Positions 10,877 to 41,709 of a DNA stretch of 64,000 bases are shown piece by piece (the first letter of the stretch is position 1; each line of letters opens with the position of its first letter). Source of the DNA: Chloroflexi bacterium 54-19 (lineage in GTDB: Bacteria; Chloroflexota; Chloroflexia; Chloroheliales; Chloroheliaceae). The stretch is taken from contig MKTJ01000055.1 of assembly GCA_001898225.1 (NCBI GenBank), forward strand, positions 1 to 64,000. The letters run 5' to 3'. The notes beneath the pieces were generated by a model. It made no database searches, had not been told where the DNA came from, and worked only from the letters and a program-made list of their open reading frames with translations. A program made the translations under genes and the position numbers.

Positions 10877-10893
10877 TACTATCAGGCATAGTA
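10877..10893. promoter_or_regulatory. BlaI-type operator B
   Basis: TACTATCAGGCATAGTA: arms TACTAT/ATAGTA kept, centre diverged. It is followed by CGAATAC, as is operator A on its minus strand. It lies about 260 bp before the L,D-transpeptidase pseudogene; I see no matching -35/-10 pair around it. Confidence 0.6.
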
Positions 10894-13240: not shown

Positions 13241-13294
13241 TCGACAACGGAAATCTTTTCGAGTATAATAATGCCGCTACTACTGCCAATAGTA
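13241..13294 (+). promoter_or_regulatory. Promoter followed by BlaI-type operator C
   Basis: TCGACA (13241-13246), 17-bp spacer, TATAAT (13264-13269), then the operator TACTACTGCCAATAGTA (13278-13294) starting about 8 bp after the -10, so over the start point. A repressor here would block transcription rightward into the ABC-2 permease remnant. Read on the minus strand the operator is identical to operator K at 37044-37060. Confidence 0.75.
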
Positions 13295-18442: not shown

Positions 18443-18460
18443 AGGTTTTCCTTTCAAAAT

Positions 18461-19285: not shown

Positions 19286-19359
19286 AAAATTTCCTTAAAA
19301 ATCTTCCCTGAACATACAGAACTTACAGACCCCTCCCTTACTAATCTGGCCTGGGGCGG

Positions 19360-22979: not shown

Positions 22980-22991
22980 GCTAATTCCTGC

Positions 22992-23654
22992 TCAATCCTT
23001 AAACCGGCTTAATTTCAGACCACACCGCGAGCAAAAAAGGTCGGACAACTTCGTTTCGTGGCGGCAACGCGGACAGAAACGTCCCAGGCGAAGGGTTTCT
23101 TCTTCCCCTTCAGGACCGGCCCTGTTTAAGCCCGGTAATTCTTCCCTGTCACTCCTGCCTGGCGCAGCGGTTTGAGGCGTGGTATTACCCACATTTCCCC
23201 TTGCCGCTACTGTGGGTATCCCTGGCCCCTTGCCCGCTCCAACCCCTCGGGCTTTTTTTGAAATTTGAGCCCGTGCTAGAATTTTAGCTACCGCCTGTTC
23301 AATTTCTTCTCCGGCCTGCCGTTCTCTGGCTTCCAGCCCGTCGAGTTTTAGCAGGGTTGCTAGCGCCTGCTTATTGTATTCGGCGTGCAGTTGCAAAAAA
23401 TCTTCACGGTTTAAATCGCCAGCCTTAAAATCGTGATCCACTTCTAACAGGTTGCCGTAAATCCGGTCTCGCTCTTCCCGGACCAGGATTAATTCCTTTC
23501 TTAGACCGCTTGATTCAGAAGAAATTGCCAGGGAAAGTTCCTCCTGGTTATTTTTCCGGCGGTCGGGCGCTAACGGGTAAAGCAGATAGATTGCCCCCGC
23601 TACAATCGCTACCAGGGCCAGACTTATTACCCCTAAATCTCCAAACGGCATCAC
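22992..23654 (-). CDS. CcmI-like membrane protein with C-terminal zinc ribbon
   Basis: 220 residues: one N-terminal membrane helix (SLALVAIVAGAIYLLYPLA), a helical segment with RIYGNLLEVDHDFKAGDLNR, which is the typical CcmI/CycH-type motif (ALxELDxDxxxGKxxxED), a Gly/Pro linker, and a zinc ribbon CPRCRHETKLSDLFCSRCGL at the C-terminus. CcmI-type proteins hold apocytochrome for the heme lyase. Its ATG overlaps ccmH by 4 nt, so translation is coupled. The zinc ribbon replaces the TPR part of proteobacterial CcmI. Confidence 0.7.
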   Translation of the reverse strand: MMPFGDLGVISLALVAIVAGAIYLLYPLAPDRRKNNQEELSLAISSESSGLRKELILVREERDRIYGNLLEVDHDFKAGDLNREDFLQLHAEYNKQALATLLKLDGLEARERQAGEEIEQAVAKILARAQISKKARGVGAGKGPGIPTVAARGNVGNTTPQTAAPGRSDREELPGLNRAGPEGEEETLRLGRFCPRCRHETKLSDLFCSRCGLKLSRFKD

Positions 23655-24661
23655 TCTGTCTCTTTTCCGGCCCTGACGGTTTTATTTTCTGATCCGCTCC
23701 GCGCCATTTTTTTTTCAGAGGTTGTTGTAGTATTGGCCGGACCGGTAGCGGCCGGGAGGAGGGAAGTATTTGAAAATATCCCCTCCTCTCGGTCCCGGAA
23801 GGCTGCCAGTTCTGTTTCCAGGCGTGCCTGGTACTTCTTTAAGGCTTCAGGGTCAAGCCCGCTAATATTGGCGACTTCACCAAAAGATGAAGTTCCGGTC
23901 TGGTTTTTTTCACCATCCTCAACCGGCTTGCGGGCGGTCGCCCCGGCAACCGCTCCCACCAGCGGGTCCGGTTGCCCTTGCCCCGGTTGGCCTGGAGTAG
24001 CGCCTTTCAGGCTGAGACGAGCTTTCCAGAGCCGCAGGACATAACCCACGGTGCCCGCGCCTACCAGCAGTCCGGCAACGGGGAGCAGCCAGACCAGTAA
24101 AGTAAAACCGCTTTTGGGGGGATTTGTCAGAATGCTATCGCCATAACGGTCCACGAAATACTGTAAAATTGCCTCGCTGGTTTCACCCTGCTCAAGTTTC
24201 TTTTTTATCAAAAGGCGCATCTGCTGGGCCAGCCCTGAATTGGAGAAAGCCACCGTGACCCCCTGACAGATAGGGCATTGCAACTGGTCGGCAATCTTAA
24301 AAGTGTCTGCGTCGTAGACGCTATTTTCAATCGGGGCCGGTGTCACCACCTGCCCGCTGACCGGGACCGGACTCAGGAAAGTTACCAGCCAGGCGGCCAG
24401 GACCAGCGTCACCATCAACCTAAATGTGCGGCCTGTTTCGGAGCGGGGCCGGGGCCGGGAAGGAGATTCCCCAACTCCGGCGATATTTTTAATCCGGCCC
24501 CGCTCCTTATTCCTATCCCTGGGTGTAACTCCCGCCCTGGCCCTGGCCCTGGCCCGGGTAAAGAACCATGCCAGGGCATTAGCCACTGGGAGAAGCTGCC
24601 CGGTAAGCCAGGGCCGCTCTTGTGTCAGGTAGCTGGTCTCTCTTTCTCTTTCAGGTTTCAT
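23651..24661 (-). CDS. ccmH: Cytochrome c maturation protein CcmH
   Basis: 336 residues. A long N-terminal part with a membrane helix (about 78-100, LMVTLVLAAWLVTFLSPVPV) precedes the CcmH domain: IADQLQCPICQGVTVAFSNS with C129 and C132, then EQGETSEAILQYFVDRYGDS and a second helix FTLLVWLLPVAGLLVGAG. The usual motif is LRCxxCQN; here it is LQCPICQG. CcmH reduces the apocytochrome CxxCH before heme attachment. The C-terminal 120 residues are Pro/Gly-rich with one segment DPEALKKYQARLETELAAFR. It overlaps ccmF and the CcmI-like gene by 4 nt each. Confidence 0.88.
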   Translation of the reverse strand: MKPERERETSYLTQERPWLTGQLLPVANALAWFFTRARARARAGVTPRDRNKERGRIKNIAGVGESPSRPRPRSETGRTFRLMVTLVLAAWLVTFLSPVPVSGQVVTPAPIENSVYDADTFKIADQLQCPICQGVTVAFSNSGLAQQMRLLIKKKLEQGETSEAILQYFVDRYGDSILTNPPKSGFTLLVWLLPVAGLLVGAGTVGYVLRLWKARLSLKGATPGQPGQGQPDPLVGAVAGATARKPVEDGEKNQTGTSSFGEVANISGLDPEALKKYQARLETELAAFRDREEGIFSNTSLLPAATGPANTTTTSEKKMARSGSENKTVRAGKETE

Positions 24662-26685
24662 CTTGCCACCGCTACTTCTACATCTACCGGTGTTGTGGGC
24701 GGAAGGGTTCTTACGCTAGAAACCGCGCGCGGTTCTTTCCGACCGGTTTTTGGATACCAGCTTATTACTCCACCGAACAGCAACAGACCGCCTCCCAGCC
24801 AGATCCAGATCACCATCGGGTTTACAAACACAAAGAAACTCACCGAACCATCTTCCCCCAGACTGTTAAAGACCACATACAAATCCTCGCTGGCGGTGCT
24901 GTGGATAGCTACCCCGGTGGTAGGCTGGTTTTCAAAATTAGGGTAGATCCGTTTTTCAGGCAGGATGGTTTCCGGCGTCTTATCCCCGGCCCGGAGGATG
25001 TGTAGCGGAGCCACAATTATCTGAGTGGCCCCCTCCAGACCCTGTCTGGCTCCTGGAAAAGTCAGGGTATAAGAGCCGACTGTTACACTCTCACCCGGTT
25101 TTAAGGCCACTTGCTGGTTCAGTTTGTAAACTGAAGAAGAGACCACCCCTACCGTTATCAAAATTATTCCGAGGTGTACCAGGTAGCCGCCGTAACGCGA
25201 CTGGTAGCGCCAGGGCAGGCGGATAAGGGCCAGCGGCCAGTTTTCAGAAGTCTGCATCCGGCGGACTCTGCCCCCTCGGTAGAATTCGAGGACGATTCCG
25301 GCCACTACAAAGGCGCATACCGCGTAAGCCAGCACAACGGCCGGTTCCCGCATTCCTAAAATTACCAGCACCGTCGCCGCCACTCCACCCGTCGCGACCG
25401 GCCACATCAGATTTCTTAAAAGGGTATCTCTGGAAGCTTTGCGCCAGGGAATAAGCGGACCAAGCCCCATCAGGAAGACCAGGGCCAGAAAAATAGGGCC
25501 GTTGGCCTGGTCGTAAAAGGGTTTGCCTACCGTTGCTTTATTACCTGTAACCGCCTCGCTTACCAGCGGAAAGACTGTCCCCCAGAAGGTTACAAGGGCG
25601 ATGGTTATAAGCAACATATTATTAAACAGAAAGCTCGACTCGCGCGAAAGGAGCGAATCCATGGGCCGTTCGCTTTTGAGGTGAGGAGAGCGCCAGACTA
25701 AAAGCCCCACCGGGACGATCAGGACCAGCCCCAAAAAGAAAAAGAAAAAAGGGCCGATAGCCGACAGGGAGAAAGAGTGGACCGAGGCGATCACGCCACT
25801 GCGGACCAGGAAGGTACCGAAAATCGAGAGGCCAAAACTGAGGATTACCAGCCCCATGGTCCAGATTTTAAGAACTCCACGCCGGTCCTGCACCAGGACC
25901 GAATGCAAAAGCGCCGACATAGCCAGCCAGGGCATAAAAGCCGAGTTCTCCACCGGGTCCCAGCCCCAGTATCCGCCCCAGCCCAGAACGTGATAAGCCC
26001 ACCAGCTACCCAGCAGGTTGCCCAGACTGAGGAATATCCAGGAGGCCAGAATCCAGCGGCGGCTGACTTTGATCCACTCGTTATCCAGTCGTCCACTGAG
26101 CAGGGCGGCCATGGCAAAGGCAAAGGGGATCGAGACGCTCATGTAACCGATAAGTAGCATGGGAGGATGGATCAGCATACCCCAGTCGCGTAAGATCGGG
26201 TTAAGCCCGGCCCCATCGCTGGGGGTGAAGTTAAGCCTTTCAAACGGGGTTGAGACAAAGGCCAGCAGAAATAGAAAGAAGGTTTGGATCGTCATCAGGA
26301 CCGCAATGACATAAGGCAGCAGCGCCTGATGGGTCTGGTGGTAGCGCCGCACCGCAATGGTGGAAAAGACTGCCAGCGTCAGGCTCCAGAAAAGGAGGGA
26401 ACCTTCCTGACCGCCGTAGAAAGCTGCCGCAATATAGTACCAGGGCATATCCAGGCTGGAACGTTCCGCGACATAGCGCAGCCCGAAGTCGTGCGTCAGG
26501 AAAGAAAGGATCAGGGTTAGGGCGGCCACCAGCTCCAGTGCGATTACCAGATAAACTCCGCGCCGGGCGCTGACAACCAGTTCGGCCCGCTGCCACTTTA
26601 CCCCGGCAACAGCGGCTCCCCCACTCCAAACGGCCCCGGCCAGAGCCAGGAGTATCGCAATGGTCCCTATATCGCTCAAGTACAT
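24658..26685 (-). CDS. ccmF: Heme lyase CcmF (CcmF/CycK family)
   Basis: 675 residues with many membrane helices, the usual length. The WWD heme-handling domain is present: GWGGYWGWDPVENSAFMPWL (W242, D243). Also typical are MPWYYIAAAFYGGQEGSLLF and LRDWGMLIHPPMLLIGYMS near the N-terminus (with the heme-ligand His), and YGGYLVHLGIILITVGV later. CcmF accepts heme from holo-CcmE and attaches it to reduced apocytochrome together with CcmH and CcmI. No CcmE, CcmA, CcmB or CcmC gene lies in the window; they must be elsewhere for System I to work. Confidence 0.95.
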   Translation of the reverse strand: MYLSDIGTIAILLALAGAVWSGGAAVAGVKWQRAELVVSARRGVYLVIALELVAALTLILSFLTHDFGLRYVAERSSLDMPWYYIAAAFYGGQEGSLLFWSLTLAVFSTIAVRRYHQTHQALLPYVIAVLMTIQTFFLFLLAFVSTPFERLNFTPSDGAGLNPILRDWGMLIHPPMLLIGYMSVSIPFAFAMAALLSGRLDNEWIKVSRRWILASWIFLSLGNLLGSWWAYHVLGWGGYWGWDPVENSAFMPWLAMSALLHSVLVQDRRGVLKIWTMGLVILSFGLSIFGTFLVRSGVIASVHSFSLSAIGPFFFFFLGLVLIVPVGLLVWRSPHLKSERPMDSLLSRESSFLFNNMLLITIALVTFWGTVFPLVSEAVTGNKATVGKPFYDQANGPIFLALVFLMGLGPLIPWRKASRDTLLRNLMWPVATGGVAATVLVILGMREPAVVLAYAVCAFVVAGIVLEFYRGGRVRRMQTSENWPLALIRLPWRYQSRYGGYLVHLGIILITVGVVSSSVYKLNQQVALKPGESVTVGSYTLTFPGARQGLEGATQIIVAPLHILRAGDKTPETILPEKRIYPNFENQPTTGVAIHSTASEDLYVVFNSLGEDGSVSFFVFVNPMVIWIWLGGGLLLFGGVISWYPKTGRKEPRAVSSVRTLPPTTPVDVEVAVAR

Positions 26686-26878: not shown

Positions 26879-27442
26879 TCACTCATGAACCAGCACTTCC
26901 AGATAATTCCGCAGAATGGGTTCTGTCATGGGGAGCATATATTTGCGCCGGACGGTTCCGTCCGCCCCGATAAACCAGGTCTCCGGAATCCCCGTCGTAC
27001 CGAATTCAATTGAAATTTCCCCGGTTGTATCCGGTCCGTTGGGATAAGTTATGCCGTAGCGTTTCAAGAAGGCGTTTGAGTCTTCTTTGCGGTCCTGATA
27101 GGTCACCCCTAAAAATACAACCCCCTTTGGGGCATACTCCCCGTAGAGCTTTTGCAATACCGGAGCTTCGTCCCGGCAGGGGACGCACCAACTGGCCCAG
27201 AAATTTATAACCAGCGGCCGCCCTTTTACCGCGGCAGGGCTGATCAAATTTTTACCTTCCCACTCATAGCCGTCAAACAACTTTAATTCGAAAGGGGGCG
27301 GCTGGGTGAAGGGCACGCGGGCGTTTTTATTACTCTCCTGATTAAACAGGCGGTAGCCGAGTAAACCCAGCAGCGCAAATACAAATAAGAAAATAAAAAG
27401 CCAGCTAATATTACGATAGGATCTCTTTATCAGGGCTGTCAT
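26879..27442 (-). CDS. CcmG/ResA-type thioredoxin-like protein
   Basis: 187 residues: N-terminal membrane anchor (WLFIFLFVFALLGLLGYRLF), then a TlpA-like domain with the redox motif INFWASWCVPCRDEAP (C86, C89), VVFLGVTYQDRKEDSNAFLK, and the cis-Pro region GTTGIPETWFIGADG. The GIPETF/W element is typical of CcmG/DsbE. It delivers electrons from CcdA to CcmH or the apocytochrome. It is the first gene of the operon; 193 bp separate it from ccmF, with a pyrimidine-rich stretch at 26697-26730. Its promoter carries two BlaI-type operators. Confidence 0.9.
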   Translation of the reverse strand: MTALIKRSYRNISWLFIFLFVFALLGLLGYRLFNQESNKNARVPFTQPPPFELKLFDGYEWEGKNLISPAAVKGRPLVINFWASWCVPCRDEAPVLQKLYGEYAPKGVVFLGVTYQDRKEDSNAFLKRYGITYPNGPDTTGEISIEFGTTGIPETWFIGADGTVRRKYMLPMTEPILRNYLEVLVHE

Positions 27443-27580: not shown

Positions 27581-27630
27581 ATTCTACCAGCCATTTAGTA
27601 CGAGTGTCAATAGTAAGAGTGCCAGTAGTA
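27581..27630 (-). promoter_or_regulatory. Promoter of the cytochrome c maturation operon with tandem BlaI-type operators (D1, D2)
   Basis: Operator D1 27599-27615 (minus strand TACTATTGACACTCGTA) contains the -35 TTGACA (27605-27610); TAGAAT (27581-27586) follows after 18 bp. Operator D2 27614-27630 (minus strand TACTACTGGCACTCTTA) overlaps D1 by 2 bp, 15 bp centre to centre. In both, the left arm as read on the minus strand is good and the other arm is degenerate. Confidence 0.75.
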
Positions 27631-27790: not shown

Positions 27791-29536
27791 CTATCTGGAC
27801 AGATCTTCATTGAGAAAATTTCGAGGGTCGGAAATCAACCCGTTCACGCGGACTTCCCAGTGGAGGTGGGGGCCGGTAGAACGTCCGGTACTGCCGACCA
27901 GCCCCACACTTTCACCGCCCTGCAAGGTTTGACCCACCTTTACGTCTATCTGGCTCATGTGAAAATAGTAGCTGGTTACACCCAGACCGTGGTCAACCGC
28001 CACACTCAGACCGCGCGCCTTGAGAGAGCCGGTAAAAATGACTTTGCCGGGTGCTGCCACTTGCACGTTTGCCCCGGCGGTCTCACTGTTTGGGGCCATA
28101 TCGATCCCTTCATGCAGGTAAAGGGTGTCCGTTTTGCCGTTAAAGGTTCGCTGCTGGGCAAAGTTGGTAACCTGGGTCCAGGGAACTTTAAGCGGCCACT
28201 GCCAGATCCCCTGCCACAAACAGGTTGGCGAAAACGTAGAATAGGCAGCGTTGAGCTGGGCGTTATCATAGTCATCGGCGCTGCGGTCGGCCAGGGTCGA
28301 AAGGTCACCCGCAAGATCCAGGTCTTGGCTACCATAATCGCGGGAATTTACCCTGATATTACGGGTAATGGTCCGGGCGATGCCCTGCCTGTCGATAAAA
28401 GCCAGCGTCAGGGGGTAAGTCCCCGGATTTAACGATGGTTCAATTGCCTGCAGCGCTTTGTAGCTTATTGCAGGCGAAGAATCTTTTTTAAGCGGGCTAA
28501 ATTTTAGGGTTGAAGCGGCAAACTTTCCCTGCAAGTCTACGGGTGGCTCGCTGGAAGCGGCTGACCCTTGATCTACCAATTCTACCGAAAGAATTTGTCC
28601 CTGGTTGAGCGCGAGTGGATTGTCCGGAATATTGATCTCAAGACCAAACTTCGCTGGGGCGGGCCATCCCTGTGCGGCTATCAGTAAGTCGCCGCTATTG
28701 CTATAAGCTATTTTTCTGGTGGCGGTGTTGTATTCTAACCGCCCGCGTTCAAAGTATTGAACGGTCAGGCCAGCCTGTTCCTGCGCCTGGCTGATCGGGT
28801 AGCCCAGAAACTTGAGTAATTTGTTTTCTTCCCAGAAAGTCTTAAAAGGGTTTGCCAGAGTGTGTTGGGTCTGGGGAAAGTAACTCGTGTCCGGAGAGGC
28901 ATCATCGGCTGACACCGGCCGGAAAGCCGGGGTGGCCGGAGATAGATTCTGGGCCTGCGCCAGTTGCTGCCCCAGAAAACCAAGCTGGACCTCACCGCTT
29001 TGGCCGGCCAACTCCGGGTGGTATTCGAGCAGGGCCTGTTCAAACAACTGGACCTCTTTACCGTTTTGCTGGAAGATTTCGCTGAGGGGGTTGCCAAAGA
29101 CACCTGCGGCCCCATATTTTAGCCAGTAGGCCAGGAAGGGATTTTTAATAAAATGGCCGGTTTCACCGACATACACTGTGTCCGAGTTTACAGCCAACGC
29201 CGCAAACGACAACGCCTGAGTCGGTGGAACAGGTGTACCCGGTGTGAGGCTCGGTGGCCCCGCAGGCGTAGCTGACGATTCATGGGCGACCGGATCTGGA
29301 ATTTGACTGACCGGCGGCTGACCGGTAGGCCCGGAAGGGGTGGTACCGGTCGCCGGAAAACCCGGTCTGCCGGTCGTGGAACTGCCGGTAGGGGTGGACA
29401 GCGGCAGCACGCTAACAGGCGGAGTGGCTCCGGCGGTGTTTTGGCTGGCACTACTCCCACAGGCAAGTAAGGCCAGCGGGAGTAGTACAGTTACCACCAG
29501 GAGGGTTGAGGGTTTTGCAATGGACCGGGTTTTCAA
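27791..29536 (-). CDS. M23-family metallopeptidase lipoprotein
   Basis: 581 residues from TTG 29536 with AAGGAAA upstream. A lipobox LALLAC (signal peptide about 1-26) makes it a lipoprotein. A Pro/Thr/Gly linker is followed by two related modules with HFIKNPFLAYWLKYGAAGVF, QLFEQALLEYHPEL and, later, TVQYFERGRLEYNTATRKI, and then a beta-rich part. The C-terminal M23 domain keeps its zinc and catalytic residues: H475 and D479 in HEGIDM, and HLHW with H557/H559. It probably cleaves peptidoglycan cross-bridges at the cell surface. Its promoter at 29593-29621 has the -10 within a BlaI-type operator, so it belongs to the proposed regulon. Confidence 0.85.
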   Translation of the reverse strand: MKTRSIAKPSTLLVVTVLLPLALLACGSSASQNTAGATPPVSVLPLSTPTGSSTTGRPGFPATGTTPSGPTGQPPVSQIPDPVAHESSATPAGPPSLTPGTPVPPTQALSFAALAVNSDTVYVGETGHFIKNPFLAYWLKYGAAGVFGNPLSEIFQQNGKEVQLFEQALLEYHPELAGQSGEVQLGFLGQQLAQAQNLSPATPAFRPVSADDASPDTSYFPQTQHTLANPFKTFWEENKLLKFLGYPISQAQEQAGLTVQYFERGRLEYNTATRKIAYSNSGDLLIAAQGWPAPAKFGLEINIPDNPLALNQGQILSVELVDQGSAASSEPPVDLQGKFAASTLKFSPLKKDSSPAISYKALQAIEPSLNPGTYPLTLAFIDRQGIARTITRNIRVNSRDYGSQDLDLAGDLSTLADRSADDYDNAQLNAAYSTFSPTCLWQGIWQWPLKVPWTQVTNFAQQRTFNGKTDTLYLHEGIDMAPNSETAGANVQVAAPGKVIFTGSLKARGLSVAVDHGLGVTSYYFHMSQIDVKVGQTLQGGESVGLVGSTGRSTGPHLHWEVRVNGLISDPRNFLNEDLSR

Positions 29537-29581: not shown

Positions 29582-29621
29582 TACTATCGGCTATAGTACC
29601 AAGTTTTGGTTTACGGCTCAA
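29582..29621 (-). promoter_or_regulatory. Promoter with BlaI-type operator E over the -10
   Basis: Minus strand: TTGAGC (29616-29621), 17-bp spacer, TACTAT (29593-29598). That -10 is the left arm of the operator TACTATAGCCGATAGTA (29582-29598). It lies 46 bp before the M23 peptidase start. Confidence 0.75.
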
Positions 29622-29947: not shown

Positions 29948-29987
29948 TTGTAATTCATTGTCCTTTGCAGTACTATCCATGATAGTT
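29948..29987 (+). promoter_or_regulatory. Promoter with BlaI-type operator F over the -10
   Basis: TTGTAA (29948-29953), 17-bp spacer, TACTAT (29971-29976), which opens the operator TACTATCCATGATAGTT (29971-29987). Same arrangement as promoter E. It faces the NiCoT pseudogene, leaving a leader of about 190 nt. Confidence 0.7.
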
Positions 29988-30179: not shown

Positions 30180-31240
30180 ATGCGGGGTTTAATCAGCCAT
30201 ATTTTTAATGATCGGTCCCCTCTGGTTAAGGGAAAGATAATTGGCATTCTGGCGGTGCTGACAGCTTTCAATCTGGGTCTGTGATTTCTAACTGTTGCAA
30301 TCTCGACCCAGTATGCCGTGGTGCTGGGGATCGGGTTATTAGCTTACACTTTTGGGATGCGGCACGGGGTAGATGCCGATCATATTGCGGCTATTGATAA
30401 TGTGACCCGTAAGCTGATGCAAGAAGGAAAGAAACCGGTAGCGGTCGGTTTCTTTTTCTCGCTCGGACATTCCACGGTGGTGTTTTTGTTAAGTTTTATT
30501 CTGGCCTCACCTCGGCGGTGCTTACCGACAGTATGCCTGGTTTAAAAGAGATTGGCGGGTTGATCGGCACCAGTGTTTCGGCAATTTTTCTATACCTGAT
30601 CGGTTTAATAAATTTGCTGGTCCTGGTAGACATTTACCGCATGTTCCGCCGGGTAACCTGCCAGGGCAGTTACAGAGAAGAGACCCTGGAGACGTTCCTG
30701 GCTCAACGCGGGCTGATGAACCGCTTTTTTGGCCCACTGGTCAGGGTCATTGATACCAGTTGGAAGATGTACCCACTCGGGTTTCTATTCGGGCTTGGTT
30801 TTGATACAGCCACGGAAGTTGCGTTGCTCGGTATTTCCGCTACGACTGCCGGTAATGGTATTCCAATTTATATTGTCCTGATCTTCCCCTTGTTATTTGC
30901 CGCTGGTATGAGCCTGGTGGATACGATTGACTCGATTATTATGCTGGGTGCTTACGGGTGGGCCTTTGTTAAACCCGTTCGCAAGTTATATTACAATTTG
31001 AATATAACTCTGGTTTCGGTTCTGGTTGCTCTGGTGGTTGGGACCATCGAATTGCTGAGTATTGTGTCGGATAAACTGGCCTTGAAAGGCGGTTTGTGGG
31101 ATCTGGTCGAGAATATTAATTTTGAAACTCTTGGGGTAATTATCGTGGCTATCTTTGTAGTAAGCTGGCTACTCTCGACAATTGTCTATAAGATCAAGAA
31201 ATACGATGATATTGAAGTAGAGTCGCTCAGTAACGGTTAA
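30180..31240 (+). pseudogene. NiCoT-family nickel/cobalt transporter, broken by a stop and a frameshift
   Basis: From ATG 30180 (AGGAG 10 nt before) the frame meets TGA at 30282-30284 and continues without a shift into RHGVDADHIAAIDNVTRK and FSLGHSTVVFLLSFILA. Near 30510-30540 it shifts to a frame with LGFDTATEVALLGISAT and GMSLVDTIDSIIMLGAYGW. All four NiCoT signatures (RHxxDADHI, FxxGHSTVV, LGxDTATE, GMxxxDTxD) are thus present, but over two frames with one nonsense codon. The uptake permease for Ni or Co would be non-functional unless the lesions are errors. Operator F is in the promoter. Confidence 0.8.
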
Positions 31241-31838: not shown

Positions 31839-33165
31839 ATGCGGGAGTTTTTTAGACGCTTTAGAAGGGGAGTGGCGCTGGTAGGGGTAATAGTGGCAAC
31901 CCTGGTTGCTCTTTTGATAACTTTTGCCTCCTGCTTCCCCGGCCACTCCCGGGACGACGCTTGGGGAGCTTTTTGGCAACACCAACCGGGTCGCTCCGCC
32001 CAGGGTGGGCAGCACGAATCTGACTGATCAGCAAATTGCTGCTTATCAGGAAAAGGTCCGGGCCAACCCCAATAACACGGCGGACCAGGCCAAATTAGGT
32101 CTGACTTATTTACAAAAGGCCCGTGAGGTGGGTGAACCCAACTTACTATAACAAGGCCGAGGCTGTTTTTAATAAAACCCTGGGGCTTGATCCCAAAAAT
32201 GTTGAAGCAATGGGTGGGATGGATTCTCTTTATCTATCCCGTCACCAGTTTGCCAAAGGGCTGGAGTACGGCCAACAGGCCCTGGCCCTAAAACAGACGA
32301 GCTATAATTATTGAGTTATTGCCGATGGTCTGGTTGAATTAGGCCGCTATGATGAAGCAACCGCTACCTTTCAGAAAATGGTAAACCTGAGACCGGACCT
32401 GAGTTCTTACTCGCGGGTTTCATATATCAGGGAGCTTTACGGGGAATACGAAAGCACTATCGAAGCCATGAATGAGGCCGTTGATGCCGGTGCGCCAAAG
32501 ACGGAAAGCCAAGCCCATGTTACTTACCAGTTGGGTAATCTGTATTTCAACCGGGGCGAACTAAACCAGGCTGAAATGATTTACACCGAAGTGGTGACGA
32601 TGTTCCCGGACTACTTCTATGCCCAGATCGGCCTGGCTAAAGTCCAGGCGGCCAGAGGTAATCCTGCTAAAGCGATTGAGGTTTATTCAAAAGTTACCCA
32701 GCGAATGCCGTTACCGGAATTTATTATCAAGTTAAGTGATTTGTATACCTTGACCAACCAAACCGAGCAGGCCAAAAAGCAGTATGACCTGGTGCGGGCC
32801 ATCCAGAAGATTTACCGCGAGAATGGTGTAAACACCGATATGGAAATGGCCCTCTTTGAAGCCAACCATGACAACGACCTGCCTCAGGCGCTCCTGAGAG
32901 CCCGCCAGGAGTTTGCCGCCCGGCCCAGTATCAAGGCCGCCGATGAACTGACCGGCGATTACCGGCTGTTAGTGATGCGGTCCAGCAGGTTCTCAGGCTG
33001 GGTACTCTGGACCGACTGGTGTTCTTTCACGCCGATATGATTGCTGTAAAAATGGGTCAAAAGGATCAGGCCCGTCAGTTCTTGCAAAAAGCGCTAGTCA
33101 AACCGAACTTTTCTTTCCTGCACGCGGCGGAAGCCCGGACTACCCTGGCCGGTCTGGGAAACTGA
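31839..33165 (+). pseudogene. Anchored TPR-repeat protein, multiply frameshifted
   Basis: From ATG 31839 a basic N-terminus and a membrane helix (GVALVGVIVATLVALLITFA) are followed by frame changes near 31990 and 32130, an in-frame TGA at 32312, and a change near 32980. Joined, the frames give a tetratricopeptide protein: YNKAEAVFNKTLGLDPKN, YDEATATFQKMVNLRPDL, YQLGNLYFNRGELNQAEMIY, GNPAKAIEVYSKVTQRMP, and the end GQKDQARQFLQKALVKPN, stop TGA 33163-33165. Anchored TPR proteins often serve cytochrome c maturation (the CcmI/CcmH C-terminal part), which would suit this locus, but that is inference. Confidence 0.7.
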
Positions 33166-33510: not shown

Positions 33511-33527
33511 TACTACATCCAGTAGTA
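33511..33527 (+). promoter_or_regulatory. BlaI-type operator H
   Basis: TACTACATCCAGTAGTA: arms TACTAC / GTAGTA nearly perfect. It lies 92 bp upstream of operator I (start to start). No clear promoter is around it, so it may act as an auxiliary site for the DUF305 promoter. Confidence 0.7.
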
Positions 33528-33602: not shown

Positions 33603-33636
33603 TACTATTGACTATAGTACGATATATAAGTATAAT
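33603..33636 (+). promoter_or_regulatory. DUF305 promoter with BlaI-type operator I over the -35
   Basis: Operator TACTATTGACTATAGTA (33603-33619) contains TTGACT (33608-33613); a perfect TATAAT (33631-33636) follows after 17 bp. This is the clearest promoter of the set. Confidence 0.85.
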
Positions 33637-33656
33637 CGCCGCGTTGTCGGAAGGAA

Positions 33657-33728
33657 ATGATCGCTCAAATTCGTGACAAATTGTCTTCGCCCGGCTTTCG
33701 CTTTGAATTTTCAGACTGCTTTGAATGA
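33657..33728 (+). CDS. Possible 23-residue leader peptide
   Basis: ATG 33657 follows GGAAGGAA and opens a 23-codon frame (MIAQIRDKLSS...) ending TGA 33726-33728, about 20 nt after the -10 and 70 nt before the DUF305 start. The good Shine-Dalgarno is the main support. It could be a translational leader or chance. Confidence 0.35.
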   Translation: MIAQIRDKLSSPGFRFEFSDCFE

Positions 33729-33798
33729 ATTATTTGCAGCCAGAATAATCGGGATAGGTGAAGGTTTTATAAAAGGAAGTTTAGGAGAAGGGAAGAAT

Positions 33799-34632
33799 AT
33801 GAAACGCCTCTTTAGTTTTACAATAGTTGCCTTACTGGTGACTGTTACTCTGTCGGCTTGTGGTAATAGCACCAATACCACTTCCCCCGGCAACTCGGGT
33901 GCTGCAGCCGGGGCTACCCAGGGTGGGATGGGAAGCATGCCCGGTATGACCATGCAGCCCGGCCAGTCAATGGCTCCGAGCACCGCCGCTTCAACCACGA
34001 TGGCGTCCTCAACCACTACGATGGCGGCTACCACAATGGCAGGCATGAATATGACCCCCGGTACGACAATGGCAGGTATGACCACAATGCCTGGAACTAC
34101 GGCCGCTTCCGGTACGATGGTGTCTGCGACCCCTGGCAACGATGCGATGACTCAGAGCCTCAAAAATTTAAGCGGCGCTGAATTTGAAACCAAGTTCATG
34201 CAGGAGATGATTGCCCATCATTCTTCCGCGATAGACATGGCTAAACTGGTCTCAACCAATACCAAGCGCCCGGAACTTATCAAGCTTTCGCAGGATATTA
34301 TCTCGGCGCAGGACAAAGAAATAACTGAAATGACCGGCTGGCTTGCCAGTTGGTATAGTGCCAAACCGCTGGCCGACAACATGAGCGCTCCTGGTATGAT
34401 GGATATGATGGGCCAGATGGATCAGCTTAAAAATGCCAAAGATGCTGCCTTTGATAAACTGTTCCTTTCTATGATGATTGAACATCATTCAAACGCGGTA
34501 AGTATGGCTTCCCTGGTTCCTCAAAAGACCCAGCGCCCGGAACTATTAAAGCTCAGTCAGGACATCATTAAATCTCAATCTGCCGAGATTCAAGAGATGC
34601 AGACCTGGCAGAAGACCTGGTTCCCCACCTAG
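33799..34632 (+). CDS. DUF305 lipoprotein with Met-rich linker
   Basis: 277 residues from ATG 33799 (AGGAGAAGGGAAG upstream); a longer frame to 33673 is only the leader. Signal peptide with lipobox TLSACG makes it surface-anchored. A Met/Thr/Ser-rich linker (about 35-120) has many MPGM, MAGM and TTM units, as in copper-binding periplasmic proteins. Two DUF305 repeats follow with HHSSAIDMAKLV (H140, H141) and HHSNAVSMASLV (H229, H230), each ending in KLSQDII and a helical EIxEMxxW element. DUF305 is a ferritin-like helical fold seen in metal-related operons. The promoter has two BlaI-type operators. Copper handling is inferred. Confidence 0.85.
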   Translation: MKRLFSFTIVALLVTVTLSACGNSTNTTSPGNSGAAAGATQGGMGSMPGMTMQPGQSMAPSTAASTTMASSTTTMAATTMAGMNMTPGTTMAGMTTMPGTTAASGTMVSATPGNDAMTQSLKNLSGAEFETKFMQEMIAHHSSAIDMAKLVSTNTKRPELIKLSQDIISAQDKEITEMTGWLASWYSAKPLADNMSAPGMMDMMGQMDQLKNAKDAAFDKLFLSMMIEHHSNAVSMASLVPQKTQRPELLKLSQDIIKSQSAEIQEMQTWQKTWFPT

Positions 34633-34701
34633 TTTAACCCGGTTTCGTCTTCGGGGCCTGGGTAGGCCAGCCCTGCCCCCTGAATAAAGGACTGTAAACG
34701 A

Positions 34702-34745
34702 AAAGGTGGGTCCCGTATTTCAAAACGAGGGATCCATCTTTTTTA
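34702..34745. terminator. Bidirectional terminator between DUF305 and the M56 gene
   Basis: Arms AAAGGTGGGTCCC (34702-34714) and GGGATCCATCTTT (34729-34741) pair at 11 of 13 positions, with an A run before and T run after. It serves both convergent genes. Confidence 0.75.
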
Positions 34746-34881
34746 ATATCTATTTTTAAGCGGGAAGGAGGGCAAGGGGCTGGAGTTGAAACCAGGCGAG
34801 TATCGAGGGCCTGCCAACCGGAGCGGAAACTATTTCCCTGAAGGCCGCACCCACCCCGAATGAGCAAGGAAAAACTATGTT

Positions 34882-35889
34882 CTAGCCCAGTTCGGGACAT
34901 AAAAGATGAATTATCCAGGTGCTGGCCGACCAGATAACCAGGCTGGATATAAGGGCCAAAAAGGTTTTTGACCAGAGCGGTGTCTTTCCGAAAAGAAGTT
35001 CCGCCGGTCCGGCGCTACTGAATTCTATCAACCGTGTCACTCGCTGTTCGGTGAGGGTTGGTGCATTTTCGGGGGTCAAACCGGGAGCCTGAAACCCTTT
35101 TCTAACTTTGGTCCTGGGGGAAAGCTGAGAGATTGCCAACAATTTCTCCCAAACCTTTAACAAAGCGTCCGCAAGGGCCAGGGCTCCGTTTATACCTCCA
35201 AACCTGGCAACCTTCTCGTCACAGGCAAGTTCCTGGTCTTTCTTTATAAGCTCAACCAGCGCGCGGCCACCGGGCAAATAGAAGAAAGCGGCTGCCGACC
35301 AGGTTGCAAACCAGTTGATCCAAAAATCACGCCGAATAAGATGCGCCTGCTCGTGCCATATCACCGCTTTTAGCTCGGTGTTGCTCAGGTCTCCTACCAG
35401 ACCGGTGGAGAGGATGACATATCCTTTACAGAAAGGAAGACCTGGCAGGTTATAAGCAAACGGCTGGCTACTATGCCACAACCTTACCTTCAGACCTCTT
35501 CGCCCCATGGTCTGGCTGGCAAGAGTTTCCATTCCGGGAGGTGCTGCCCAAGTGTTGCGGAAAGTACGAAGGTATAACCAGACTAAACGTACGAGGTTTG
35601 CCCCAAAGGTTACCCCAATCGGAACCGTAAGCAATGTGAAGCCAGCCACCCCCAGTAACCACTCTCGGTGTGAATTGTGGTCGGTATTGTGGTCGTACTC
35701 CGGAAAGAAAACAGACGGTGACATGGTTAAAGAAAATAAAAACATCACCAGCATAGGCATAGCGAGGGCCATTATTTGTAAACCCTGCCGGAACCACCAG
35801 CCTTTAATATTGGGAAGCAGTTTTATAAGAAGGATTTGCTCCAGGGCCACAGTTGCAAGACTGGTAATCAGAAACAGGACGTGTACCAT
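34882..35889 (-). CDS. M56-family (BlaR1-like) membrane metallopeptidase
   Basis: 335 residues with helices near 1-25, 35-60, 80-110 and at the C-terminus. The zinc motif is HEQAH (H179, E180, H183) in KAVIWHEQAHLIRRDFW, and E220 in ELACDEKVA is the third ligand. These are the M56 peptidase signatures of BlaR1/MecR1, which inactivates the BlaI repressor when induced. There is no C-terminal penicillin-binding sensor domain, so the signal is not a covalently bound beta-lactam; this resembles mycobacterial BlaR. The gene begins 11 nt after the blaI-like gene and is co-transcribed with it. Confidence 0.9.
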   Translation of the reverse strand: MVHVLFLITSLATVALEQILLIKLLPNIKGWWFRQGLQIMALAMPMLVMFLFSLTMSPSVFFPEYDHNTDHNSHREWLLGVAGFTLLTVPIGVTFGANLVRLVWLYLRTFRNTWAAPPGMETLASQTMGRRGLKVRLWHSSQPFAYNLPGLPFCKGYVILSTGLVGDLSNTELKAVIWHEQAHLIRRDFWINWFATWSAAAFFYLPGGRALVELIKKDQELACDEKVARFGGINGALALADALLKVWEKLLAISQLSPRTKVRKGFQAPGLTPENAPTLTEQRVTRLIEFSSAGPAELLFGKTPLWSKTFLALISSLVIWSASTWIIHLLCPELG

Positions 35890-35900
35890 TTCAATACCTC

Positions 35901-36623
35901 CTAATGGTCCCGGTTTCTGCTTGAAGTTGAAGACGCCAGGGGCGGGGAAGAAGGATGCCTGCCTCTCGTTTTTCTGGTCTGGCCCCCTTGTTCTGCCAGA
36001 TCGGAGGTCTCGGCGGTGGCGGTGGCCTCCTGGCGTAAATTCACCATTTTTGCTTTGAGCGCGGTTAGTCTTGAGGTTTGTTCCTCAGTGGCAACCTGGC
36101 TCAGGTAGTTTTCGGCTGAATGCGAAAAGCTCACCAGCAAGTTTTCAAGAATTTGAGTTACAAAGCTGGAGATAAATTCTTCCTTACTAAGGCTGGGTGT
36201 GTAGACATAGGCTCCGGGTATTTTCCTGGCTCGCAGAATATGTTTGCGGCCCAAACGCGCCATGGTACTCATTACCGTCGTGTACGCGATATAGCGGTGC
36301 AACCTGAAATCTTCGTAAACGTCACGCACGGTCAACCACTGCCGGTCGGGTGTTATACTTTCCCAGATATACTCCATTATATCAGCTTCCAGATCGCCCA
36401 GAACCTTGCGTACTCCATCCCGGTCAGTGCGGAAAACGGTTATATCCGGCTCTAAATCCTGCTCCTGATCCAGGTCGGTTTCAGACTCCAATACCTCCGT
36501 AAGAGGCTCACCGGCCGTTTCAAACCTTTTTTCTTTCAAGGGTAAAGCCTCGGATGCCTCCGTTTTTAAAGTGTGCTGCCTCTTCTGGTCATTTTCGAGG
36601 CCAACTTTTGATTTTCTTGGCAT
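35901..36623 (-). CDS. BlaI/MecI/CopY-family transcriptional repressor
   Basis: 240 residues, about twice the usual length. The BlaI winged HTH is at about 70-147: VRKVLGDLEADIMEYIWESI, WLTVRDVYEDF, recognition helix YIAYTTVMSTMARLGRKHIL, wing YVYTPSLSKEEF. A dimerisation helix region follows (FVTQILENLLVSFSHSAENY). The acidic N-terminal tail (1-70) and the polar C-terminal tail (about 200-240) are extra. BlaI proteins bind dyad operators as dimers and are relieved by an M56 peptidase. The operator 36799-36815 in its own promoter implies autoregulation; twelve more sites surround it. Metal-sensing (CopY-like) cysteine pairs are absent from the C-terminus. Confidence 0.9.
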   Translation of the reverse strand: MPRKSKVGLENDQKRQHTLKTEASEALPLKEKRFETAGEPLTEVLESETDLDQEQDLEPDITVFRTDRDGVRKVLGDLEADIMEYIWESITPDRQWLTVRDVYEDFRLHRYIAYTTVMSTMARLGRKHILRARKIPGAYVYTPSLSKEEFISSFVTQILENLLVSFSHSAENYLSQVATEEQTSRLTALKAKMVNLRQEATATAETSDLAEQGGQTRKTRGRHPSSPPLASSTSSRNRDH

Positions 36624-36781
36624 AATTCTGTCTTCACTTCCTCACTACAGTTACTTTTTATTTGTCGCACAACCTCACCTGGTACCCTTATACCCCGGCC
36701 CGGTTTTACAGGCGCTACCACCTGCTCTTATCCTGAATTTGCCTCGAAGGTTTGCTTTAGCCGATTTCAAAATTAGCTTTT

Positions 36782-36815
36782 AGTATAAAACCGGATGATA
36801 CTACTGTCAATAGTA
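36782..36815 (-). promoter_or_regulatory. Autoregulated promoter of the blaI-M56 operon, operator J
   Basis: Minus strand: TTGACA (36805-36810) inside operator TACTATTGACAGTAGTA (36799-36815), 17-bp spacer, TATACT (36782-36787). Leader of about 150 nt to the blaI-like ATG. Confidence 0.85.
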
Positions 36816-37043
36816 AAACCTCTGACGGACCGGACTTTATTCACATTTTAAGGTTCTCTAATTCATCAAATTATCGGTTTTAGCTAGCCTCAAATTCTAT
36901 TTGTAGGGTTCCTTTATTTGTAACCCTTCCGACCACCGTTTTGAGCCGGAGCTCTTTAGGCCGCTATAACCGGTGATCTCTGTTTTGCCTGGTGAGCGAT
37001 AGGTTTACCGGTTTCGTCATTTGACAGTTTCTTGTTAGCTTGA

Positions 37044-37078
37044 TACTATTGGCAGTAGTACGAACACATTAGTAGAAG
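37044..37078 (+). promoter_or_regulatory. Promoter with BlaI-type operator K over the -35
   Basis: Operator TACTATTGGCAGTAGTA (37044-37060) contains TTGGCA (37049-37054); TAGAAG (37073-37078) lies 18 bp on. The -10 is weak. It faces the large membrane protein at 37305. Confidence 0.65.
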
Positions 37079-37304: not shown

Positions 37305-39506
37305 TTGCCCGAGGCATCCCTACTTCGCCAAAGATACAGACGGAGACAATTTTTGTTAAATAGAAACCAGCTTCTCTCAGCCCTCAAAGGAACGGCCCCT
37401 TTGTTTTTCTTTCTGGTTGTGGCCCTTGCATTTACCTGGCCCTTACCCCTGAATATGTCAGATCGGGTTGTAGCCACCGGGAGTGGCGATATATGGCAGC
37501 ATCTCTGGAATATCTGGTGGGTGCGCTTTTCTCTGCTCGATTTGCATTCACTTCCCTATAATACTTCTCTGCTGTTTTATCCGACCGGGGCTAACCTGTT
37601 CTTTCACGCCCTTGACCCGCTGGACGGATATATCTCCATCCCCTTCCAGCTTATATTCGGTCTGGTAGCTGCCTTTAATCTGGTAATTCTATTTCAAATC
37701 ACGCTGGCCGGGTGGGCCACTTATTTGCTGGCTTCTTATCTGACCGGTAATCGGCGGGCCGGGCTGGTCGCCGGGATAATATATGCCTGCTCCCCGCTTG
37801 AGTCGCGCCTTATTACCCTGGGGCAACTTGAACTGACTTCAATTGAGTGGATTCCCCTCTTTATCTTTGCCTTTATCAAATCCTTTGACCGGAACCAGCC
37901 AGGAAGGGGGGTGTGGGTCTGGCGAATTCTGAGTGCACTCTGTCTGGTAGTTTTAGCCCTGGTAAGCTGGTATTACCTGCTCTATGCCTTTTTGCTGGGC
38001 GGGTTATACGGATTGTACCTCCTTTTTAGAGAACGAAAAGGCTGGCGGGAAAGATGGGCTGCCACGCTTCTGAACCTAGGCCTGGTATTTGGAGGGGCCG
38101 GTTTGCCGGTGCTGCCCCTATTAGTGGCTACCCTGAAGGCGGCCGGTTCTGGTACCACCAGCCAGCCAATTTTTACCGTTATTTACAACTCGGCTACCTT
38201 GAAAGGTTTTTTAACTCCCGGACCCTCCGCCCTCTGGGGTCTTTTTGGTTCCAGTGATAATCATGAATTTCGAGGTAATTTTCTGGGTTTTATAGCTCTG
38301 GGGTTGGCCTGGTGCGGCCTGGTTACCGGCTACAAAAAGAACTGGTTCTGGGTTCTGGTGGCGGCTGTCTTTGGTCTTCTGGCGCTTGGCCCGGTCCTTC
38401 ACCTGAGTTTTAATCCGGACTGGACACCCCAAACGATTGAAGGTGGCCCCAGTCTGCCAGGGCGACTCCTGTATAATCTGCCTTTTGGTAATATTGCCAG
38501 AGTGCCCCTCCGGTTCGGCCTGGTCACCTTTTTAGCACTGGCAGTTCTGGCGGCCTTCGGTCTGAACTGGCTGGAAAGTAAACTTTTCAGGAGACCGGTC
38601 AAGTTTTTACCCGCCAGATGGGGCGGCTGGTTACCGGCGGCTCTGGCCGGTTTGCTGGTATTTTTAGAGTTCTTCCCTGGCATCCGCCCTTTGATTGATA
38701 CCGCTGTCCCGGCGGTTTATACCCAGCTAGCGGCTGAAAGTTCCTGGAACGACTTTGCCGTCCTTGAAACACCTGACCGGGACGATGCCTCTATCATAAG
38801 TAAGGCGATGTATTACCAGACGGTCCAGGGCCACCCCATGGTAGGCGGCTATCTCTCTCGCAAACCGACTTATCCCTTCAAAAATTATTCCGGTATCCAG
38901 GAGCTGCTGGCTCTTGAGGAACGGCTCAATCAGCGCGATATTCTGGACCGGGCCAGTCTGCGAAACGTTCCGGGTGTCCTGAACTTTTACAATATTCGCT
39001 ATGTTATCGTCCATACCTCTCTCCTGTCCGACCCGGATCGTCTCTATAATGCCAACCGACTGCTTCAAACCGTATTTGGGCCTGACACAAAGCCTTACTA
39101 CCAGGACAGCCAGTTACAGGTCTGGCAAACACCCACCTTTATCGAACAAAAAGATACCTCTCCTAGGCTAGAGAAAATGCTGCCTGAGTTAGGCGAGGGG
39201 TGGGGCAAACGGCTTGATACCCCTTCGGGGCCGCAGCGTGTGGTAGCCAGCCAGGCTCGTCTGGCCTTATTCAATCCCTTCCCTTCGCCGATGTCTCTGA
39301 CGCTGCAGGTCAGGGTAGCCAGGGAGGATCAGAAGGTCAGCCTGAAGACCGCCTTGAACCAGAAAGAGATAAACTTTTCTGAAACCGCCGCTTTATCCGG
39401 GACCGTTCAAATCAAGTTGACGCTGGCTCCCGGTCCTAACGACCTGATTTTTACGACTTCAGGAAATATTTACTTTGGCAGCTTTACCTTTAGTTCTATT
39501 TCCTGA
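37305..39506 (+). CDS. Large polytopic membrane protein, glycosyltransferase (GT-C/YfhO-like)
   Basis: 733 residues with about 11-12 helices in the first 460 residues and an extracytoplasmic C-terminal part. Features of GT-C enzymes: first-loop acidic residues (VVATGSGDIWQHLWNIWW) after helix 1, and LFYPTGANLFFHALDPLDGY. The C-terminal part contains VLETPDRDDASIISKAMYYQ and ends in a beta-rich domain. Such proteins transfer sugars from polyprenyl-phosphate donors to surface polymers. The TTG at 37305 has no clear Shine-Dalgarno; an internal TTG near 37353 with CGGAG upstream is an alternative. BlaI-type operator K lies upstream. Confidence 0.6.
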   Translation: MPEASLLRQRYRRRQFLLNRNQLLSALKGTAPLFFFLVVALAFTWPLPLNMSDRVVATGSGDIWQHLWNIWWVRFSLLDLHSLPYNTSLLFYPTGANLFFHALDPLDGYISIPFQLIFGLVAAFNLVILFQITLAGWATYLLASYLTGNRRAGLVAGIIYACSPLESRLITLGQLELTSIEWIPLFIFAFIKSFDRNQPGRGVWVWRILSALCLVVLALVSWYYLLYAFLLGGLYGLYLLFRERKGWRERWAATLLNLGLVFGGAGLPVLPLLVATLKAAGSGTTSQPIFTVIYNSATLKGFLTPGPSALWGLFGSSDNHEFRGNFLGFIALGLAWCGLVTGYKKNWFWVLVAAVFGLLALGPVLHLSFNPDWTPQTIEGGPSLPGRLLYNLPFGNIARVPLRFGLVTFLALAVLAAFGLNWLESKLFRRPVKFLPARWGGWLPAALAGLLVFLEFFPGIRPLIDTAVPAVYTQLAAESSWNDFAVLETPDRDDASIISKAMYYQTVQGHPMVGGYLSRKPTYPFKNYSGIQELLALEERLNQRDILDRASLRNVPGVLNFYNIRYVIVHTSLLSDPDRLYNANRLLQTVFGPDTKPYYQDSQLQVWQTPTFIEQKDTSPRLEKMLPELGEGWGKRLDTPSGPQRVVASQARLALFNPFPSPMSLTLQVRVAREDQKVSLKTALNQKEINFSETAALSGTVQIKLTLAPGPNDLIFTTSGNIYFGSFTFSSIS

Positions 39507-39831: not shown

Positions 39832-39848
39832 TACTATTTCAAATAGTA
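39832..39848. promoter_or_regulatory. BlaI-type operator L, perfect palindrome
   Basis: TACTATTTCAAATAGTA, perfect 8-bp arms. On the minus strand TTGAAA within it and TAAAAG 17 bp on could form a weak promoter, but no minus-strand gene follows. The nearest rightward gene starts 600 bp away (40450), so its target is unclear. Confidence 0.7.
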
Positions 39849-40449: not shown

Positions 40450-41709
40450 ATGAGAACCAAAACCCAGCTAAAACAACCTTTTGGGAAGTCGAATACGCCG
40501 CGAACCAACCAGCGCCAACCTTTCAAAGTGGAGCCGAGAATATCCACCAGGGTTCTAACTGCCAACCAGATTGACCGACCCGGCGGTTTCAAAACCATTA
40601 AACAGGTCACCTTCTTTCTGGAACACTTTGTAACCCCCTTTGCACCAATCCTACTATTGTTGGTGGTTGGGCTTCTCCCCTATTTTTTGCTGCCAGAAGG
40701 AAAAAGCCGCTGGGGTGATTTCTTAAATATCTTCCTTGGTCTTACTATTGAAGCGTTACCCTTTCTACTGATGGGGGCTTTGGTAGCGGCTACTTTAGGT
40801 GTCTGGAAGCAGCGCAATAAAAGGGTCACCGGAGTCTGGAAGAAAATAGTCGGGACTCGCGGGGGTGCCACTGCGGCGGGGATAGGTCTTGGATTTGCCT
40901 TGCCGGTTTGTGAATGCGGTACCGCCTCAATCGCCCGGCAGGTAACCCGAGAAGGGGCCCCGGTCTCGATGAGTCTGGTATTCCTGCTGGCGGCTCCGAT
41001 AATAAACCCTGTGACTATTCTCGCCACCTGGATTGCTTTTGGAGGTGATTGGAGCATTGTGCTGGGAAGAGTCGGTCTTGGACTGGTCCTCGCCACCGGA
41101 ATGGGCCTGTTATTCAGTTTTCACCCCGCGCCAGGCCAGCTTTTTAAGCCCGGCTTGATGCCTGGTGGGAAAGACAATCTTCCAGTTAATAACCCGCCCG
41201 CATCCCCGCACGCCCATTCACATTCGGCCCCTACCCAGGCTGAAGAAAAACAGGAGGTCCATGCTGCTCCGGTAGCAGACGCGGCGGCATCTCAGCCCGG
41301 TCGGTCAAAGGTAAGTGGGTTTATGCAGCAATGCTTTTTGGAATTTCTCGGAGCGACCAAAGTCGCCGTGCCAGGAATTTCGCTGGCTGCGGCCTTTCAG
41401 GCTTATATCTCCCCCGGCTTATTTTTAGGGCTGGGTCAGGGCGCGGTTCTCTCCGTAGCGATACTCATGCTGCTGGCGACCTTAATGTCGGTCTGTTCTT
41501 CAGTTGACGCCTTTGTGGCCCTGAGTTTTACCGGCCTGTTTCCGGTCGGGGCGGTCCTGGCGTTTCTGGTATTCGGACCATTAATCAACCTGAAAAGTCT
41601 TTTTCTCTTTCGCCTCGTGTTGCGACCTGCAACCATCTGGCTTCTTACAGTATTATGTTTTAGTTTCATTTTGCTTGCTGGAGTAATTATCAACCTCAGG
41701 TTGGTTTGA
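40450..41709 (+). CDS. UPF0718/ArsP-like permease (DUF318), probable metal or metalloid exporter
   Basis: 419 residues; about eight helices in two blocks. The signature GLGFALPVCECGTASIARQV, followed by REGAPVSMSLVFLLAAPIIN and PVTILATWIAF, identifies the UPF0718 permease family; the second half has FVALSFTGLFPVGAVLAFLV. A His-containing loop between the blocks (SPHAHSHSAPTQAEEKQEVH) may bind metal. The first 60 residues are basic and polar and may be partly untranslated: there is no Shine-Dalgarno before ATG 40450. The next gene (TIGR03943) is the usual partner. Related ArsP exports organoarsenicals; the substrate here is unknown. Confidence 0.8.
   Translation: MRTKTQLKQPFGKSNTPRTNQRQPFKVEPRISTRVLTANQIDRPGGFKTIKQVTFFLEHFVTPFAPILLLLVVGLLPYFLLPEGKSRWGDFLNIFLGLTIEALPFLLMGALVAATLGVWKQRNKRVTGVWKKIVGTRGGATAAGIGLGFALPVCECGTASIARQVTREGAPVSMSLVFLLAAPIINPVTILATWIAFGGDWSIVLGRVGLGLVLATGMGLLFSFHPAPGQLFKPGLMPGGKDNLPVNNPPASPHAHSHSAPTQAEEKQEVHAAPVADAAASQPGRSKVSGFMQQCFLEFLGATKVAVPGISLAAAFQAYISPGLFLGLGQGAVLSVAILMLLATLMSVCSSVDAFVALSFTGLFPVGAVLAFLVFGPLINLKSLFLFRLVLRPATIWLLTVLCFSFILLAGVIINLRLV

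Follow-up and report, generated by a model that had tools for sequence, protein, structure and literature searches.

Promoter-overlapping palindromic operators as a probable link between a BlaI-type repressor, an M56 protease and metal-handling genes in a Chloroflexota bacterium

A 64,000-nucleotide (nt) stretch of the Chloroflexi bacterium 54-19 genome (contig C55; hereafter the window) carries a recurring 17-bp palindrome that repeatedly coincides with promoter elements, raising the question of which regulator reads these sites and to what end. A preliminary description listed eight of them, interpreted them as repressor operators and assigned the embedded promoters to three geometries. All eight are present, and each -35 and -10 element quoted for them was recovered at its exact coordinates. 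The palindromic sites are real and more numerous than first reported. About a dozen predicted metal-handling and envelope genes are preceded by the operator, which often overlaps a putative promoter, and the regulator is likely a BlaI-type repressor such as the one encoded within the window beside an M56-family protease.

The sites conform to the pattern TACTAY-N5-RTAGTA, for which the reversed pattern served as a control. Ten exact matches occur in the window, compared with none in 60 simulated windows of the same dinucleotide make-up; the gap is five bases in all ten, and the 11 other gaps tried returned nothing. Four of the exact sites, at 7517, 10877, 33511 and 39832, extend the initial list. 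Across the whole genome (9.25 Mb) there are 15 exact sites versus one for the control, and 14 of the 15 fall on three contigs (C55, C62 and C14) that together represent 2.8% of its sequence (P = 2e-21). These same contigs hold the genome's three BlaI-family genes. Together with five sites bearing one or two mismatches (27599 and 29971 in the window, C62:15156, C62:27652 and C14:47286), the exact sites constitute an own-genome set of 20 operators. Judged by their arms alone, 27599 (two mismatches) and 29971 (one mismatch) are weaker.

The window BlaI gene (35901-36623, minus strand) encodes a 240-residue BlaI/MecI/CopY-family repressor with a winged-helix Penicillinase_R domain (PF03965 above cut-off, E = 4.4e-17) and an N-terminal extension of approximately 70 residues. 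Directly 3' of it lies a gene for a 335-residue M56 (BlaR1-type) membrane metalloprotease (34882-35889, minus strand; PF05569, 46.8 bits against a cut-off of 31, E = 2.8e-12) that contains the motifs HEQAH and ELACD. No other M56 protein encoded in this genome passes the cut-off; a further match, on C47, falls short of it. The BlaI-family proteins of C62 and C14 are 52% and 50% identical to that of the window, with a near-identical recognition region. Each of the three blaI genes has an operator shortly 5' of its start codon (36799, C62:15156 and C14:47286), and in each the operator centre forms the -35 element. For the BlaI-M56 operon, the operator at 36799-36815 (minus strand) is centered on TTGACA (36805-36810), followed at a 17-bp spacing by a -10 element, TATACT (36782-36787).

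The association between operator, BlaI and M56 is also found in other genomes. In a metagenome-assembled genome (MAG) of the same genus, Chloroflexi MAG RYN_336 (L036), whose BlaI and M56 proteins are identical to those of genome G001, the genes run BlaI, M56, thioredoxin, DUF305, and the palindrome again stands 5' of blaI. Outside the genus, we collected the 12 best BlaI loci (109,443 bases in total) and found seven exact-arm sites in five of them; shuffled sequences and 11 other spacings gave none. In the distant relative L086, a multicopper oxidase gene stands on one side of the operator and a cluster encoding BNR, cytochrome c, redoxin, BlaI and M56 proteins on the other. In L087 the operator is 5' of a BNR gene that clusters with BlaI, M56 and DsbD_2, and in L088 it is inside the early part of the BNR open reading frame (ORF) preceding BlaI, M56 and DsbD_2. 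In a Bacillota MAG (L037), two exact-arm sites flank a BlaI-M56 pair. The M56 gene adjoins BlaI in L036, L086, L087, L088, L090, L093 and L037.

We next consider the promoters, using 31 operators (20 from this genome and 11 from relatives). In geometry 1, the operator centre is the -35 element and a TATAAT-like box lies 17-18 bp downstream; in geometry 2, the left arm is the -10 element; and in geometry 3, the operator lies just past the -10. Scoring geometry 1 as at least five of the six TATAAT letters at 17-18 bp from a central TTGAC, we found such a box on 12 of the 13 operator strands with a TTGAC core. The background is about 1% at other offsets around TTGAC-cored operators, and control TTGACs qualified in one of 101 cases elsewhere in the window and three of 49 in AT-rich sequence. 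The exception is L086:4993, which is perfectly palindromic and reads TTGTCA-17-TATAAT on the opposite strand. Two C62 operators are perfect consensus promoters (TTGACA-17-TATAAT), preceding an ArsP permease and a DUF305 gene, and RYN_336 has TTGACG-18-TATAAT before blaI and TTGACA-17-TATAAT before DUF305. Among TTGAC-cored operators that played no part in the original proposal, eight of nine have the geometry, although these nine are not fully independent because some of the promoters are paralogous or orthologous. Geometry 1 is thus firmly established and predicts unseen sites, bearing out its assignment at 10711, 27599, 33603 and 36799.

The other two geometries stand on different footings. 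Five of the 60 operator strands have a TTG 17 bp ahead of the arm; the average across 75 offsets is 1.08, and one further offset likewise reaches five. Without the two sites originally placed in geometry 2 (29582 and 29971), the count is three of 56 (P = 0.08). Geometry 2 is therefore statistically weak and not established: its elements do exist at 29582 and 29971, but their -35 sequences, TTGAGC and TTGTAA, are poor. Its best example is 37044, which had been classed as a weak geometry 1 site, a placement we revise since TTGACA-17-TACTAT scores better there. The promoter-then-operator layout described at 13278 is present, and geometry 3 comprises two cases, 13278 and 10877, both with the -35 sequence TCGACA. 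A three-way scheme is accordingly firm in its first part, weak in its second and based on two sites in its third. The operators and promoters had also been said to agree independently; this is true of the -10 box, but the TTGAC part of the argument is circular because the operator consensus itself includes TTGAC. Clustering with BlaI genes, recurrence near BlaI homologues in other families and promoter overlap out of sample strongly support the identification of the sites as repressor operators.

Which genes might these operators control? We took as operator-linked, and hence as predicted targets, the nearest correctly oriented genes read off ORF lists. Among the geometry 1 sites, that at 33603-33619 (plus strand; -35 TTGACT, 33608-33613; -10 TATAAT, 33631-33636) precedes a gene for a DUF305 lipoprotein of the CopM metallochaperone family (33799-34632, plus; Pfam E = 1.5e-53; NCBIfam CopM, 112.5 bits, cut-off 90). 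This gene has a second exact-arm operator at 33511-33527 (plus), within which no promoter was seen. The operator at 27599-27615 (minus; -35 TTGACA, 27605-27610; -10 TAGAAT, 27581-27586; 18-bp spacing) is followed by a TlpA/AhpC-type thioredoxin-fold protein gene (26879-27442, minus). That at 10711-10727 (minus; -35 TTGACA, 10717-10722; -10 TAAAAT, 10694-10699) precedes a gene for a small membrane protein (10059-10484, minus) that has no Pfam match of its own and resembles a DUF2933 protein of the C62 cluster (BLASTP E = 8e-6).

At the candidate geometry 2 sites, the left arm TACTAT of the operator at 37044-37060 (plus) is a possible -10 element for TTGACA at 37021-37026, and the gene 3' of it encodes a large protein (37305-39506, plus) with a weak, under-cut-off match to DUF2079 membrane proteins. 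The minus-strand left arm of 29582-29598 is likewise a possible -10 (TTGAGC, 29616-29621) ahead of an M23 peptidase gene (27791-29536, minus), as is that of 29971-29987 (plus; TTGTAA, 29948-29953) ahead of a NicO-type metal permease gene (30180-31240, plus). A TGA (codon 35) and, further on, a frameshift break the NicO frame, reflecting either decay or an assembly error. As for geometry 3, the operator at 10877-10893 (plus) begins 9 bp past TCGACA (10839)-17-TATTAT (10862), upstream of an SH3/L,D-transpeptidase (YkuD) gene divided between two ORFs (11317-12770, plus), and that at 13278-13294 (plus) begins 8 bp past TCGACA (13241)-17-TATAAT (13264), upstream of an ABC-2 permease gene that is also split in two (13570-14309, plus). 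Further exact-arm operators lie upstream of a gene for a His-rich, 688-residue NicO and DsbD_2 metal transporter (operator 7517-7533, plus; gene 7835-9901, plus) and approximately 0.6 kb upstream of an ArsP-family permease gene (operator 39832-39848, plus; gene 40450-41709, plus), for which the closest NCBIfam model, the Cu/Zn efflux family SO_0444, scores under cut-off.

The operator-linked genes of C62 and C14 include another CopM/DUF305 gene, another ArsP gene, CsoR genes and Cu-type P-ATPases. In profile searches, CopM proteins scored above cut-off twice and one Cu-ATPase exceeded the TIGR01511 cut-off. Copper as the signal is something we infer from this regulon content and from a parallel with the PetR/PetP pair (PMC7896320).

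We consider it fairly probable that the sites are operators of the window BlaI and its C62 and C14 paralogues, and that M56 cleaves BlaI in response to copper or to envelope stress caused by copper, thereby freeing the regulon. A BlaI dimer would sit on TACTAY-N5-RTAGTA. At the strong promoters (those of its own operon, the CopM/DUF305 and TlpA genes and the gene at 10484), it would cover the -35 element and exclude RNA polymerase; elsewhere it may cover a possible -10 element or the start region. M56 would be switched on at its outer face by copper, or by envelope stress that copper causes, and would then cleave BlaI, whose loss would release genes for copper sequestration and export, thiol-redox functions and cell-wall maintenance. 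Such a circuit would work as PetR/PetP does, but be directed at metal homeostasis.

Several alternatives assign these components differently. BlaI and M56 might form a classical cell-wall stress circuit that responds to beta-lactams or wall damage, with the metal genes as bystanders. The M23 peptidase and L,D-transpeptidase genes among the operator-linked set would fit such a role, as would the known function of BlaI/BlaR1 (PMC9834060). We nonetheless regard this as unlikely: Pfam detects no penicillin-binding sensor domain in the M56 protein, only M56/M48 matches; its score of 23.6 bits with NCBIfam blaR1 falls below the cut-off of 400; no beta-lactamase was found among the operator-linked proteins scanned; and CopM, Cu-ATPase, NicO, ArsP and a relative's multicopper oxidase predominate. 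Alternatively, BlaI could sense copper itself in the manner of CopY, making M56 incidental. The two repressors share a Pfam family (PMC7253601) and the regulon holds copper genes, yet we find this most improbable. The window BlaI has no cysteine in its 240 residues and thus no C-terminal CxC metal site as that source defines it, which rules out a CopY-type site; moreover, it scores 23.9 bits against the CopY_TcrY equivalog (cut-off 121.95), and the operator is unlike the CopY consensus RNYKACANNTGTMRNY.

The operators could also belong to CsoR or another regulator, with BlaI linked by position alone. CsoR genes do stand directly beside three operator sites (two by Pfam, the third by ORF likeness). 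At the CsoR/Cu-ATPase intergenic sites (L025:4795, L026:7652 and L027:9813), the operator arms are followed by a conserved TTTnATnGTAGTAAT block, no clear promoter was evident in the sequence read, and either BlaI or CsoR may be the protein that binds. As an account of the operators in general, we think CsoR very unlikely, because no CsoR was found among the window proteins scanned, where most sites lie, the operator accompanies BlaI in other families as well, and its spacing agrees with a BlaI motif measured in Clostridium thermocellum (PMC8457756).

A number of observations weigh against regulation by BlaI and M56 as we propose it. The long exact pattern occurs in three of 400 genomes of the phylum, including this one, versus four of 400 for the reversed control. 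The weight of the phylum-wide matches rests on location rather than mere presence: in the other two matching genomes (G133 and G197), the pattern is on the same contigs as BlaI homologues, which ranked among the best outside the genus when 301 genomes were searched separately (homologue in 54). Seven of the 12 relatives' BlaI loci are without an exact site, and two of the three BlaI genes here are without an adjoining M56 gene. One-mismatch arms (TACTA-N7-TAGTA) are unenriched genome-wide (139 versus 220 for the control) and represent background; because such matches swamp the signal, our operator set was confined to exact matches and to sites with other support. The three sites before Cu-ATPase operons that adjoin CsoR differ from the rest in having an extra TAGTA block, and the M23, L,D-transpeptidase, ABC-2 and 37305 genes are operator-linked yet are not copper genes. 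Finally, the predicted structures, built from three-row alignments, were too poor to be of use (predicted local distance difference test scores of 48 for BlaI and 40 for M56).

The M56 protein itself offers a hint of how a signal might be received. In all eight M56 proteins that we aligned, these being the only ones compared, the stretch separating hydrophobic segments two and three contains a His or Cys, and one Cys is located near the C terminus. Judging from BlaR1, both would be expected on the outer face, where they would suit external copper sensing by M56. We tentatively extend the BlaI-M56 proposal to a single M56 that senses copper through these residues and clears all three BlaI paralogues, the -35, -10 and downstream placements of the operator giving graded release, much as the preliminary description suggested; this is possible, though less likely than not. 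Were it so, penicillin resistance would represent a single application of BlaI/BlaR1 logic within a broader design for sensing metals and envelope state.

Some features of these loci deserve separate mention. Two redoxin genes within BlaI-M56 clusters, which differ from each other, have an in-frame TGA at the position of the first active-site cysteine (L036:4628-5152, plus, U-IPC; L086:1734-2471, minus, U-QLC), which suggests that they encode selenoproteins. This genome, G001 and G197 each have a SelB match that passes the cut-off. A selenocysteine insertion sequence (SECIS) element received no support from folding after the L036 redoxin TGA (z = 0.03) or from Rfam, which gave no gathering-score match in four sources. 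Within the window, a cytochrome c maturation cluster (17516-26685; CcmF, CcmH, DsbD-type and BNR/YCF48-like proteins) adjoins the operator-bearing genes and has no exact operator of its own in the pattern scan. By eye, a lipoprotein-like gene with repeats (31840-33165) appears to be broken by several frameshifts or stops, and what seems to be the C-terminal part of a thioredoxin gene (from 7165, plus), near an IS3-type transposase gene (5890-6735, minus), resembles the thioredoxin of L036.

Among characterized systems, BlaI/BlaR1 and MecI/MecR1 of staphylococci share with this one the repressor family, the zinc-protease motifs of M56 and the neighboring genes. The staphylococcal BlaI/MecI operator also lies in a promoter. 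Unlike those systems, the present one has no penicillin-binding sensor and no TACA/TGTA operator, and is linked to metal genes rather than blaZ or mecA. In Staphylococcus aureus, BlaR1 is known to cleave BlaI directly (PMC9834060). The inverted repeats bound by C. thermocellum BlaI_0696 (Clo1313_0696) consist of GTCTAT arms with five bases between them (PMC8457756); this system has the same 17-bp layout of inverted hexamers and BlaR1 genes in its operon, but differs in its arms (GTCTAT, not TACTAT), its paired sites, its three operons and its interpretation as a beta-lactam response. CopY/CopR proteins resemble the window BlaI in family and in their copper-gene targets, whereas here there is no cysteine metal site, the operator is different and a protease gene is adjacent. 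By sequence, the closest solved structure to the window BlaI is PDB 2g9w (E = 1.6e-12; recognition region similar in the alignment), which is that of Mycobacterium tuberculosis BlaI (Rv1846c). The M. tuberculosis repressor differs in having a predicted regulon with ATP synthase genes (PMC7924339).

Among open-licence PMC papers, we found none that joins BlaI with DUF305 and, of those listed, none that judging by title and abstract appears to describe a copper-linked BlaI system in Chloroflexota. The nearest functional parallel is PetR/PetP of Synechocystis, a BlaI-like regulator with a neighboring, copper-activated BlaR1-family protease (PMC7896320; PMC13421787; PMC10141476). As there, a BlaI-type gene (35901-36623) adjoins a gene for a sensor-less M56 protein (34882-35889), and the link is to copper rather than beta-lactams. 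The targets of PetRP, however, are plastocyanin and cytochrome c6, and no copper-homeostasis response is attributed to it in one review; here the linked genes are those of copper homeostasis, and three repressors correspond to one protease. A BlaI/M56-type circuit turned to copper homeostasis would be a variation on a known pairing. The role of the BlaR family in surveyed heterotrophic marine bacteria remains to be elucidated according to a review (PMC10141476). Questions of this kind become directly testable here through the defined operator, the repressor, the sensor-less protease and the copper-linked list of targets.

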